In this document: piece by piece, positions 10,775-18,142 of the stretch
Layout of the letters: each line of letters starts with the position of its first letter
How positions within the stretch are numbered: position 1 is the stretch's first letter
DNA from: a virus
Virus record (IMG/VR): IMGVR_UViG_3300043446_002754
Span: 1 to 41,429 of that record
Strand: one strand, 5' to 3'
DNA length: 41,429 nt
Program-made: the position numbers and the translations under genes
Notes under the pieces: model-generated
What the model was told of the DNA's origin: nothing
The model's input: the letters and a program-made list of their open reading frames with translations, nothing else
The model's database searches: none

Positions 10775-10798
10775 GCAGCAGTCCTGGGGTGCTGCTGC
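10775..10798 (+). promoter_or_regulatory. Leader hairpin before zinc-ribbon gene
   Basis: GCAGCAG (10775-10781) pairs with CTGCTGC (10792-10798) around a 10-base loop. It lies in the 105-bp gap after the methyltransferase, 35 bases before the next start. There is no T-run, so a leader structure is as likely as a weak terminator. Confidence 0.4.
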
Positions 10799-10833
10799 CT
10801 TGCGCGGTATCGGAGGCCCGGCCGCATTCCCCC

Positions 10834-11298
10834 ATGACGATCTGCCCCGTCTGCGACAGTGCCGACACTGTTGCTCTCGATTCACGCCGTCTGTCTGACG
10901 GCCTGCGCCGCCGCGTGCGGCGCTCCTGCCGCGCCTGCAGCCACCGCTGGAACCTGGTGGTGCCGATCAAAGATGCGGCGCTGGCGTGCGAGGCCTGCGG
11001 CAGCCTCAGCGCCGCGGTGCTCGAGTCACGCACCACCCAGGGCGGCCGGCGCCGCCGCCGGCAGGAATGCCGCGACTGCGGCCACCGCTGGACCGTCTGG
11101 CTCCTGTCCGACGGCTCGGTGAGCGGTGCTGCACATCGCCAAAGCCCGCAGAGCCCTCGCCGCAGCTGCCTCGACTGCGATCGCTGGCGAGGCGACGAGG
11201 CCGCGCACCCCTGCTGGTTCCGCTTCCCCGACCCGATCGAGGAGGGCCTGAGCTTCGCCGCCGACTGCCTGCAGTTTCGACCGCGTGAAGACTTATGA
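10834..11298 (+). CDS. Tandem zinc-ribbon protein
   Basis: A 154-residue Cys- and Arg-rich protein. The first ribbon is CPVC...CRAC and the second is CEAC...CRDC. Both are followed by an Arg-rich HRW stretch and resemble the NrdR-type zinc ribbon. A third Cys group (CLDCDRW...HPC...ADC) follows. It probably binds nucleic acid and may act as a transcriptional regulator; that is inference. The ATG at 10834 was chosen over 10789 because the ribbon begins immediately (MTICPVC). No enzymatic motif is seen. Confidence 0.7.
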   Translation: MTICPVCDSADTVALDSRRLSDGLRRRVRRSCRACSHRWNLVVPIKDAALACEACGSLSAAVLESRTTQGGRRRRRQECRDCGHRWTVWLLSDGSVSGAAHRQSPQSPRRSCLDCDRWRGDEAAHPCWFRFPDPIEEGLSFAADCLQFRPREDL

Positions 11299-14353: not shown

Positions 14354-14372
14354 GTGGGAACGCTGTGGGAAC
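14354..14372 (+). repeat. Paired GTGGGAAC sites, 11 bp apart (right pair)
   Basis: GTGGGAAC at 14354-14361 and 14365-14372 repeats the spacing of the pair at 14157. The second copy coincides with the proposed GTG start codon of the integrase. A protein binding here could therefore also control integrase expression. Confidence 0.5.
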
Positions 14373-15546
14373 GCTCAAGCTGACGAAGACCCTGGTGGAG
14401 GGCGCCGCACCACGCGAGCGCCGCTTCCGCCTCAACGACTCCCTGGTGCCCGGCCTGTCCCTGCTGGTGCTGCCGACCGGGGCCCGCACCTATTACCTCC
14501 GCCACCGCGTCGACGGCCGGCAGCGCGATCTGAAGCTGGGCAGTCCGGTTGAGTTGTCGCCCGACGATGCCCGGCGCCTGGCGCGCGACGCTCTCGCCCG
14601 CGTGCGCGAGGGCGGCGACCCGATGGAGGAGCGCCGGCAGCGGCGCGATGCGCCCACCGGCCAGGACCTCTATGAGCGGCACCGGCTCGCCCGGCAGGCT
14701 CGGCCCGGGTGGGTGACCGAGGAGTTCATCTGGCGCGGCCACCTGCTGCCGGCCTTCGGGCGGGTCCAGCTGAGCCGCATCACTACGGCGATGGTGCAGG
14801 AGTTCTATGACCGTGCCGGCCGGCGCCCCGTCGCCAGGGCGGCGGTGCTGCAGCTGGGCCGCGCGCTCCGGATGAGCGAGCGCTGGGACTGGTGGCCGGA
14901 GGGCCGGGCGCCGCGGCCGTGCCGTGGGGTGGAGCTCGACGTGAAGGTGACGCGCGAGCGCTACCTGAGCCACGACGAGCTGCGTCGCCTGCGCGACGCG
15001 CTGCAGCAGTGGGAGCTCGAGTCGCAGGGCCTGGGGGTGAGGTGGCGGTTCTGCCAGCTGATCCGCCTGCTGCTGCTCACCGGCTGCAGGTTGCGGGAGA
15101 TCCTGCACGCCCGCTGGGCCTGGGTGGACTGGGCCGGCGGCCGGCTGATCATCCCGGCGGAGCACCACAAGACGGGCCGGCGGACGGGCAGGGCCAGGCG
15201 GGTGCTGCTGGTGCCGCGGGCGCTGGAGATCCTCGAGCAGCTGCGGGAGCGCCACCCGCGGGACGGCGGCGACTGGGTGATCGCCGGCGGCCGGCCGGAC
15301 CAGCCGCTCGGTGGGTATCACTCGCTGTGGAAGGAGCTGCGGGACCAGGTGGGGCTGGAGGACTGCCGGCCGCACGACCTGCGGCACACGTTCGCCTCCT
15401 ACGGGCTGAGCGCGGGACACGGCCTGGATGTGATCGGCCAGCTGCTGGGCCACGTGAGCCTGCAGTCGACGCGCCGGTACGCACACCTGATCGAGGACGC
15501 GGGCCGAGCCGCGGCCGCGCGCGTGAGCGACGACTTGGGCATGTAG
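14365..15546 (+). CDS. int: Tyrosine recombinase / phage integrase
   Basis: A 393-residue integrase that would insert and excise the phage genome. The N-terminus is a DUF4102-type arm-binding domain (DSLVPGLSLLVLPTGARTYY, LGSPVELSPDDARRLA). A core-binding helical domain spans about 100-190. The catalytic domain shows R242 in LLTGCRLREIL, K269 in EHHKTGR, H337 and R340 in PHDLRHTF, H363 in LLGHVS and nucleophile Y372 in TRRYAHLI. All six residues are present, so it should be active. The start is GTG inside a GTGGGAAC repeat with no clear ribosome binding site; a further upstream start is possible. Confidence 0.93.
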   Translation: MGTLKLTKTLVEGAAPRERRFRLNDSLVPGLSLLVLPTGARTYYLRHRVDGRQRDLKLGSPVELSPDDARRLARDALARVREGGDPMEERRQRRDAPTGQDLYERHRLARQARPGWVTEEFIWRGHLLPAFGRVQLSRITTAMVQEFYDRAGRRPVARAAVLQLGRALRMSERWDWWPEGRAPRPCRGVELDVKVTRERYLSHDELRRLRDALQQWELESQGLGVRWRFCQLIRLLLLTGCRLREILHARWAWVDWAGGRLIIPAEHHKTGRRTGRARRVLLVPRALEILEQLRERHPRDGGDWVIAGGRPDQPLGGYHSLWKELRDQVGLEDCRPHDLRHTFASYGLSAGHGLDVIGQLLGHVSLQSTRRYAHLIEDAGRAAAARVSDDLGM

Positions 15547-15653
15547 CACCGGGGCACACTTATCACCCAGATTGCTTGCGCTGCAGTCGATGTCTTATTG
15601 AGAACCGCTGAGAATGGCCGATTATGAACGGACGTAACGACGGCCAGTGTGAC

Positions 15654-15681
15654 ACCTGTGGAAATCAAGTTATCCACAGGT
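15654..15681. other. Inverted repeat containing a DnaA box
   Basis: ACCTGTGGA (15654-15662) is repeated inverted as TCCACAGGT (15673-15681), with ten bases between. The right half includes TTATCCACA (15670-15678), a perfect match to the classical DnaA box. The left half reads as a box with two mismatches on the other strand. Two facing DnaA-like boxes next to a less GC-rich stretch are what an origin could look like; not proven. Confidence 0.55.
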
Positions 15682-15929
15682 ACGCCCGTACCAGTTTGGC
15701 CAGACCCCAGTTGCCGCAATGTATCTCAGCCGTGGTACGCCCGTACCATCTGGCCTCATTCGGTATCGCCTTGATACCAACGGCGCAACGCCTTGTGCCA
15801 ATTCCGGCCCGTTCCGTGTGCGAGCTGTGTGCCAGTTCGTGCTTATCGTGCCACTTGTTGACCGGCACACGCCCGGCCAGAGTCCTTGCGGCGCAACGCA
15901 TCTGGCCGCATCTGATACGCCCGTATCAG
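15679..15929. repeat. Array of covarying short palindromes
   Basis: Palindromes share a short CC-containing centre while the arms change in step. GGTACGCCCGTACC lies at 15679-15692 and 15734-15747. GGTATC...GATACC lies at 15762-15778. A GGCGCAA/TTGTGCC pairing lies at 15782-15799. CTGATACGCCCGTATCAG lies at 15912-15929. Several are followed or preceded by TCTGGCC or TTTGGCC, and GGCGCAACGC occurs twice. Paired changes in both arms point to selection for the fold or for two-fold symmetric binding. Confidence 0.7.
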
Positions 15930-15994
15930 CCGCATCGATGCCGCAGCGTGCAGCGCCTTGAAGCACATTGGAGCGGTTCACCGCACCACCCCCC

Positions 15995-16183
15995 ATGGGC
16001 GTCATCGCTGATTCACTCCGCGCCTCGCTTCGCGAGATGGCCGCCGCCGACGCGCGGCTCTACCGCGGGCTTGCCGCCGAGCTGGCCGACACACCAGCCG
16101 CTCGGCCGGCGCTCCCCGCCGACGAGATCGCGGCCGCCATCGCGCTCCTCGAGCGCCACGGCTACACGGTCACCCGGCCGTGA
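15995..16183 (+). CDS. Small helical protein, 62 aa
   Basis: A 62-residue Ala-rich helical protein (ADSLRASLREMAAADARLYR, ADEIAAAIALLERHGYTVTR) of unknown function. The ATG at 15995 was chosen; the open frame starts at 15968. It is the first gene after the palindrome block and is followed by a GC-rich hairpin. The C-terminal EIAAAIALLERHGY might be a dimerisation or DNA-binding helix, but nothing specific is seen. Confidence 0.5.
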   Translation: MGVIADSLRASLREMAAADARLYRGLAAELADTPAARPALPADEIAAAIALLERHGYTVTRP

Positions 16184-16291: not shown

Positions 16292-16636
16292 ATGACCACA
16301 TCCACCGACCGCGAGGCCGCCATCCAGGCGGCGCTTCGCCGCAAGCGCGCCGATGCCTGCCGCCGCTCGCGACTGCGTGCGGCGGGCCTGCTGGAGCCGA
16401 TCCCCCGCTGCTCGCGCTGTGACACCCGCTGCTTCACCGATCGCTGGCTGCCGCTGTGCTCGGTCTGTGCCCGGCGCCTGGGGCACGACGGCGGCCACAG
16501 CCGCCTGCGCGCGCGCCAGCATCGCCAGCCCCGTGAGCTAGTGCTGCTTGCGGATCAGGTGCTGGCGGAGCTGCGCGCCGAGGCCCGCGCGGAGGCGGCT
16601 GTTACGAAGTGCGACAGCACCCCGGCGCCCGGCTGA
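16292..16636 (+). CDS. Small Cys-rich zinc-finger-like protein
   Basis: A 114-residue, strongly basic protein. CSRC and CSVC, about 20 residues apart with CDTRC between, suggest one zinc site in the middle. Arg-rich stretches flank it (ALRRKRADACRRSRLRAAGL and SRLRARQHRQPREL). A nucleic-acid-binding role is plausible. It is the third Cys-rich basic protein in the plus-strand region, after those at 10834 and 14009. The ATG at 16292 was chosen over upstream starts that lie in the terminator-like hairpin. Confidence 0.55.
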   Translation: MTTSTDREAAIQAALRRKRADACRRSRLRAAGLLEPIPRCSRCDTRCFTDRWLPLCSVCARRLGHDGGHSRLRARQHRQPRELVLLADQVLAELRAEARAEAAVTKCDSTPAPG

Positions 16637-16645
16637 ACCTGTCGG

Positions 16646-16730
16646 TAGGGTGAGCACATCGGCAGGCCGAACGCGCCGCTGATCATCGGGGGAGCAATCC
16701 CCTCCGGGGCTCTGACCCCTGGCCCGCGGG
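16646..16730 (+). promoter_or_regulatory. TAGGGT box and structured leader
   Basis: TAGGGT (16646-16651) followed by GAGCAC recalls the element at 12462. The 156-bp gap then folds readily. GGGGA (16689-16693) and TCCCC (16698-16702) pair over a GCAA tetraloop. CCGGGG (16704-16709) pairs with CCCC and GG at 16716-16722. CCCGCGGG follows at 16723-16730. The gene start is at 16793. A structured 5' leader is likely; its ligand or partner, if any, is unknown. Confidence 0.45.
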
Positions 16731-16792
16731 AGCCTGGCAGGTAGTCGCCAATCCCGCTCACCCCACTCGCCCGGCACTGGCCGGTTCCGTTC

Positions 16793-17708: not shown

Positions 17709-18142
17709 GACCAGAGCTCGCGTGGATCCTTGCCGGTCGCCATCATCCGGCTGAGGCGCTCGGCCCGCTGGCCCACCTGCCGCGCCCACTTGCTGTCGAG
17801 CATCATCGTCGCCGCCTGCTGGTACTGGCCGGCCTCGATGGCCCCGAGCGTCCGCTTGAACGACAGCAGTCCGGCCATGCCCAGGTTGAAGGCCATGTCG
17901 AGCAGCACCCGCTGGCGCACCTCGTCCAGCTTCGACACCCACGGCAGGGCCGCCTGGAGCTGGCGCTCCAGGTCGGCGATGTCGTTGGTCAGCAGCATCG
18001 CCGACTCAGCCTGGGTGATGCCGCGGTCCTCAAGGTTGCGGCCCACCCCGATCGTGAGCTTGCCGGCGGTGCAGCGGTAGGGCTTCAGCCGCTCCCCCTC
18101 ATGGAGGCGCAGCTGCCGCACCATGGCGTCGCGGTTGATCAT
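17705..18142 (-). CDS. Endolysin, GH24 lysozyme (RrrD/T4-like)
   Basis: A 145-residue muramidase cutting glycan strands of the host wall. The family signature is intact: LRLHEGERLKPY with the catalytic Glu, followed by GKLTIGVGRNL containing the TIGxG turn, and later AFNLGMAGLLSFKRTL and GLxxRRxxE-like WARQVGQRAERLSRM. There is no signal peptide, so it should need a holin. Its start overlaps the upstream small membrane gene by ATGA, a typical holin-lysozyme pairing. Confidence 0.92.
   Translation of the reverse strand: MINRDAMVRQLRLHEGERLKPYRCTAGKLTIGVGRNLEDRGITQAESAMLLTNDIADLERQLQAALPWVSKLDEVRQRVLLDMAFNLGMAGLLSFKRTLGAIEAGQYQQAATMMLDSKWARQVGQRAERLSRMMATGKDPRELWS

Follow-up and report, generated by a model that had tools for sequence, protein, structure and literature searches.

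The window analysed here is the whole of the IMG/VR virus record IMGVR_UViG_3300043446_002754, a 41.4-kb stretch of DNA (41,429 nucleotides) with a GC content of 67%. Its minus strand carries the late operon of a tailed phage, and its gene content also includes a VapE-like primase/helicase, RecT, SSB, a DEAD helicase and a P4-type tyrosine integrase. The nearest relatives of the helicase are those of the Synechococcus phages S-LBS1 (54%) and S-H1 (52%), and the nearest match of smORF1, a small open reading frame (ORF) downstream of the integrase gene, is an unannotated stretch of S-H1 (77%). Because the helicase and smORF1 resemble S-LBS1 and S-H1 sequences, the host of the window phage is probably a picocyanobacterium.

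Between the integrase gene and the small-ORF operon lies a block densely occupied by palindromes and shorter repeats (Table 1). The initial annotation had placed a palindrome array at 15654-15929; its sites are real, but the span was too small, and the true element measures about 370 bases, from about 15544 to 15930, plus a leader reaching to smORF1 at 15995. The DnaA-box-like repeat lies where it had been reported (TTATCCACA, 15670-15678, within the pair CCTGTGGA at 15655-15662 and TCCACAGG at 15673-15680), as do both copies of GGTACGCCCGTACC, the palindromes GGTATC/GATACC and CTGATACGCCCGTATCAG, and GGCGCAA/TTGTGCC (15782-15799), the last with one mismatch; the recurring word GGCGCAACGC was found at 15782 and 15890. 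These 276 bp hold 4 perfect palindromes with a minimum arm of 6 and a maximum spacer of 5, where 0.34 are expected from 1000 dinucleotide shuffles, none of which gave more than 3; just some 1% of the segments of this length in the contig contain as many as 4.

Table 1. Coordinates of the conserved block, its sites and its neighbouring genes in the window
Feature	Position	Strand	Remarks
P4-type tyrosine integrase gene	14365..15546	+	Pfam Arm-DNA-bind_3 and Phage_integrase; not an obligate partner of the block
Whole conserved block	15544..15930	+	Aligned in 32 distinct copies; each record has one
T1, LexA-type palindrome position	15544..15557	+	Degenerate in the window (TAGCACCGGGGCAC), clear in relatives (AGTACGGCTGAACT); alignment columns 11-24
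P1, 25-bp imperfect palindrome	15569..15593	+	Class AGATCnnYTGCnnnGCARnnGATCT
S2, HLR1-like direct repeat	15623..15638	-	GTTACATCCGTTCACA in relatives; degenerate in the window
D, inverted DnaA-box-like pair	15655..15680	+	CCTGTGGAAA...TTATCCACAGG; conserved in most copies
T2, palindrome GGTACGCCCGTACC	15679..15692	+	LexA-type class; LexA-matrix score only 5.2
P2, second P-class palindrome	15702..15726	+	Almost every copy has a GTRTYT-like right arm
T3, palindrome GGTACGCCCGTACC	15734..15747	+	
S5, GGTATC-5-GATACC	15762..15778	+	Class found 14 times inside blocks, 0 outside
V array	15794..15870	+	TGTGCCAATT 15794, GTGTGC 15816, TGTGCCAGTT 15828, GTGCCACTT 15848, inverted GGCACAC 15864
P3, third P-class palindrome	15879..15903	+	
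T4, CTGATACGCCCGTATCAG	15912..15929	+	Final site ahead of the operon leader
S8, conserved leader / putative promoter segment	15957..15994	+	Promoter function inferred
smORF1, 62 aa	15995..16183	+	First gene of the small-ORF operon; no PHROG match
Small Cys-rich ORF	16292..16636	+	Zinc-ribbon-like by eye; same array; no PHROG match

Homologous blocks were collected from IMG/VR contigs by searches with the integrase and with smORF1, by DNA patterns and then with a nucleotide profile (nhmmer). They are present in about 30 other contigs, with one copy per contig. The alignment holds 32 copies including that of the window, 31 of which share under 95% identity with each other, and pairwise identity ranges from 51 to 92%. 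The order of the sites is constant, T1-P1-S2-D-T2-P2-T3-S5-V array-P3-T4 followed by the leader S8 and a small ORF, and so is their orientation; five members carry an extra module of two additional P sites between P2 and T3. Across the family the T class is RGTACGNCYGTACY, the V class TGTGCCASTT and the D class CCTGTGGAAA...TTNTCCACAGG, and S2 contains its repeat on the minus strand. In 24 records totalling 666 kb, V (TGTGCCASTT/TGTGCCAATT) occurs 50 times in the blocks and never in the 652 kb outside them, full T sites are found 20 times inside and 0 outside, S5 is equally confined, and full P sites number 89 inside against 8 outside. The possibility that a phage carries these sites at numerous promoters, as a regulon would require, was rejected for the V class, for full T sites and for almost every P site, since they do not occur beyond the block. 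No close copies were found in GenBank phages and plasmids apart from a short match in phage S-CRES3, two block patterns gave no match in 84,980 bacterial and archaeal genomes, and such an array was not found in S-LBS1, S-H1, MinM1 or S-CBS4. The family is previously unannotated.

The absence of a gene from the block, as first described, was borne out: all six frames contain stops in every one of 26 homologues, which rules out a coding region. The arms of the palindromes had also been said to change together on both sides. Among the 26 homologues the named arms form standard pairs in 76.4% of cells, against 75.8% when the 3' letters were dealt anew among the sequences, and a second set of arms gave 77.9% against 77.9%; homologues with unpaired arm changes exist, and the claim of covariation is not upheld. 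The covariation score of the named arms was 0.166, a value reached by 17 of 500 shuffles, versus 0.152 in the shuffled controls. GGCGCAA/TTGTGCC is mostly private to the window (47.8% paired across homologues), and the GGTACG palindromes have one arm broken in several members. A mutual-information screen of the alignment found no helical runs, an Rfam search of the block gave no match, and the RNAalifold consensus of the 26 homologues, 481 columns long, folded at only -9.1 kcal/mol, with -0.02 as its covariation term. Because it is non-coding, its arms pair as in shuffled controls and its consensus fold is weak, the block is an array of DNA sites and not a structured RNA. An RNA, whether non-coding and structured or a long folded 5' leader, would agree with the several inverted repeats and with an orientation shared with the downstream ORF, but in view of the fold, the control-like variation of the arms and the empty Rfam search this role, one of three proposed at the outset, is highly improbable. 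The symmetry is kept as half-sites, as expected for protein-binding DNA.

The genes upstream of the block vary and may be an integrase, a DEAD helicase, or HNH-like or other small genes. An obligate link to the VapE primase was rejected, VapE being absent from several block-bearing records. In the window and several relatives the block lies directly 3' of the integrase gene, as would suit an attP or a set of integrase arm sites. Yet the Phage_integrase domain is absent from block-bearing records of considerable length, namely G003 (51 kb), G009 (42), G013 (38), G019 (45) and G026 (41), and in G011 an intact block stands beside an integrase that has lost a large internal part. Conversely, G037, a relative of 40 kb that possesses the integrase, the helicase and smORF, lacks the block, and L003-L009, close relatives of the window integrase, have it neither adjoining the integrase nor elsewhere in their records. 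The completeness of the contigs is uncertain and many records are fragments, so that each absence is soft and holds for the recovered sequence; taken together, the absences clearly speak against attP. On this pattern of co-occurrence, which also leaves the proposed integrase accessory sites unsupported, attP was ruled out as scarcely credible.

Downstream, the arrangement is far more regular. In copies that reach them, the small ORFs always follow just after the block and run in its direction, and the first of them starts at the same aligned position with a fixed spacing. In 18 of the 23 records examined this ORF is smORF1, and elsewhere a different small ORF starts there; the first downstream ORF can be swapped while block and leader stay. 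Some phages lacking the block keep smORF and part of the S8 leader, with partial nhmmer matches to S8 before the same ORF in L136 (62 bits) and L153/L154 (39 bits), and in the block-less G037 an HLR1-like site, GTCACAATCCGTCACA at 18115, adjoins the same smORF in place of the block. Polarity, swapped upstream genes and a retained leader therefore form the pattern expected of a region controlling the downstream operon. At the start of the operon no clear sigma-70 promoter could be recognised. Sigma-70 family factors are encoded by several of the phages (G009:22813-23799, corresponding to L202, and G010, G014, G017, G028, G029 and G033), and that of S-LBS1 is annotated as cyanobacterial RpoD-like. 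In all phage groups several small ORFs of unusual, C-rich composition (up to 73% GC) occupy a stretch of 1-1.5 kb downstream, and from the block to 1.5 kb beyond it there is a strong C excess whatever the GC content of the rest of the phage. At 16640-16790 of the window another conserved element between genes (GCAATCCCCTCCGGGGCTCTGACCCCTGGCCCGCGGGAGCCTGGCAGGTAGTCGCCAATCCCGC) precedes a further small gene, and an element like it precedes different small genes in L003-L006 and L009.

The T palindromes provide a link to a known regulator. The cyanobacterial LexA (SOS) box is RGTACNNNDGTWCB / AGTACWNWTGTACT (PMC3091678, citing Mazon et al.), and the predicted LexA site of recA in Synechococcus WH8102 is CGTACGCCTGTACT (PMC3091678). 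A matrix was built from the 48 published cyanobacterial sites (PMC3091678) with phage data excluded. At a score of at least 12 it finds 19 sites in the blocks and 8 outside, against a mean of 1.06 in 300 symmetric column shuffles, none of which reaches 19, and in 15 of 23 records the best LexA site of the record falls in the block (shuffle mean 1.3). The T sites of the family, as putative LexA sites, thus match cyanobacterial LexA boxes above chance. In most members the palindromes share length, GTAC-N4-GTAC core and flanks with those boxes, and AGTACGCCTGTACT is one base off the predicted WH8102 recA site. They differ in that the array, roughly 400 bp long, groups several boxes together with other palindromes, and in that the subgroup of the window has GGTACGCCCGTACC and scores poorly. 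The window itself holds the GTAC-N4-GTAC core twice, with low scores for its T sites (5.2, 5.2 and 3.1) from a matrix that may not match the LexA box of the actual host. Because its T sites are GGTACGCCCGTACC and score only 5.2, LexA binding in the window phage is inferred from the family.

The isolated Synechococcus phage S-CRES3 was the only GenBank phage with any blastn match to the family consensus (E = 0.1). Its five best LexA-type sites score 19-22 and fall into two clusters, one at 30.2-30.3 kb and one at 33.0-33.1 kb, on either side of the leftward small-ORF operon gp63-69. The first cluster is intergenic, and so is the second if the annotated hypothetical ORF gp71, which it overlaps, is a spurious call. 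One cluster has two V motifs 12 bp apart and the other an HLR1-like site. T arrays denser than that of the block were found in two contigs: L224, which has several LexA-type and HLR1-like repeats and one ORF whose nearest match is Synechococcus phage S-CBS4, and L222, with six LexA-type sites in tandem. The very dense box array of L224 extends over about 830-1215, with repeated GTTACATTCCGTCACA sites, and that of L222 (7369-7463) adjoins a tandem repeat.

Two further classes recall sites of host regulators. TTNTCCACA is present in 23 of 32 copies of the block, and the inverted DnaA-box-like pair is on this account a feature of the family. HLR1, bound by RpaB in other cyanobacteria, has the consensus (G/T)TTACA(T/A)(T/A)NN(G/T)TTACA(T/A)(T/A) (PMC11633204). 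The direct repeat of S2 has a similar 10-bp period in many members and beside small genes elsewhere, but departs from the consensus at two positions and is degenerate in the window. A relaxed HLR1-like pattern occurs 23 times in 13 records, as compared to 0.8 in locally shuffled sequence, and 0 times in the window. HLR1-like repeats (GTNACA-N4-GTNACA) were also seen at gene borders, as at 18115 in G037 and 37705 in G001, and could possibly be a general early-promoter operator of these phages. A protein with two NrdR-like zinc ribbons, encoded at 10789-11298 of the window and common to several block-bearing phages, is a possible DNA-binding protein.

Replication origins built from iterons and DnaA boxes are known, for example from lambda and P4-type phages. 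The block resembles them in having repeats and DnaA-box-like sites in one copy per genome, and differs in the strict operon polarity and in having neither a visible AT-rich unwinding region nor a fixed initiator gene. If the block were the phage origin, the remaining one of the three roles first proposed and the main rival, the V repeats would act as iterons bound by a phage or host initiator, the DnaA boxes would recruit DnaA, P and T would be accessory, and the link to the downstream ORF would be due to chance or co-regulation. Besides the single copy in every record and the conserved inverted pair, the confinement of DnaA-box/iteron-like repeats to the block and its position directly 3' of a replication-type DEAD helicase gene in several records agree with this role. 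It is nevertheless rather unlikely: the polarity towards the small-ORF operon is strict, inspection of the alignment by eye revealed no AT-rich unwinding stretch, no single initiator accompanies the block (VapE being missing from several records, as noted), and G037, a relative of 40 kb, does without it. The change in GC skew is only local, covering about 1.5-2 kb of C-rich DNA downstream with no genome-wide switch, and does not help the case for an origin, being a local effect of the C-rich small genes; the 33-kb T/V cluster of S-CRES3 lies away from the extremes of cumulative skew. No obvious iterons were seen near the VapE gene of the window. Fixed polarity and LexA-type boxes fit transcriptional control better than an origin.

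A packaging or DNA-end site (pac/cos-like), from which the early small genes would enter the cell first, agrees with the single copy, with contigs G001, G011, G013 and G020 ending in or near the block, and with a weak P-like site near the genome end of S-LBS1. However, that match has an E of only 0.1-0.5, a variable small-gene region would equally explain nearby contig ends, and in the window and G003 the block is far from the capsid genes and presumably from the terminase, which makes such a site improbable. Also very unlikely is a selfish, non-regulatory cassette that is mobile (MITE-like) or forms a recombination hotspot at which modules of small genes are shuffled. Genes on both flanks are swapped between phages, the block may be present or absent before the same smORF (L136 and L153 versus L158), and T-P palindromes stand at both ends; but more than one copy per record was never found, orientation, site order and distance to the downstream ORF are constant, and no target-site duplication was noticed.

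We consider it somewhat more probable than its negation, at roughly 0.52, that the block is a composite operator/promoter region controlling the downstream small-ORF operon, probably an early or a lysogeny/host-takeover operon, because of the conserved order and orientation of the sites, their fixed spacing, the single copy, the confinement of the sites and the match to LexA boxes at the level of the family. The block carries three to four palindromes of the class recognised by LexA together with conserved P, V, S5, HLR1-like and DnaA-box-like sites, and regulators bound to this array would determine how the small-ORF operon is transcribed. For the T sites the foremost candidate is host LexA; elsewhere in the array, phage proteins, further regulators of the host (DnaA, or a member of the OmpR family such as RpaB) or both may bind. 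From its position and gene size the operon would be early; binding, and lysogeny or SOS control of the operon, are likewise proposed. That a temperate phage may rely on the LexA of its host is known from Bacillus phage GIL01, in which LexA represses the early promoter P1 with the co-repressor gp7 (PMC4551915). As in GIL01, LexA-type boxes are found in what would be a phage early control region, and no LexA/CI-type S24 peptidase was found in the 22 records searched, fragments included; but the host of GIL01 belongs to another phylum, the block has many more types of sites, and no counterpart of the co-repressor gp7 was identified. By analogy with GIL01, host DNA damage and physiological state could set early transcription.

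A broader proposal is more doubtful, namely that the block is an early-gene switch widespread among cyanophages, which senses several states of the host together through LexA, DnaA, HLR1-type and two new classes of sites, and that is exchanged as a cassette. LexA boxes would report DNA damage, DnaA boxes replication and the HLR1-type site light or redox state. Such a switch might serve those phages whose records yielded no CI/LexA-type repressor gene, the cassette being swapped between otherwise different phages.

As a single-copy conserved element, the block offers a marker by which a group of cyanophages can be recognised although their genomes are mosaic. The array is also a sequence signature by which phages in which no S24-type repressor is found may be recognised. 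A conserved LexA-type array before the small-ORF operon would provide a concrete link from the SOS status of the host to the decision of the phage.
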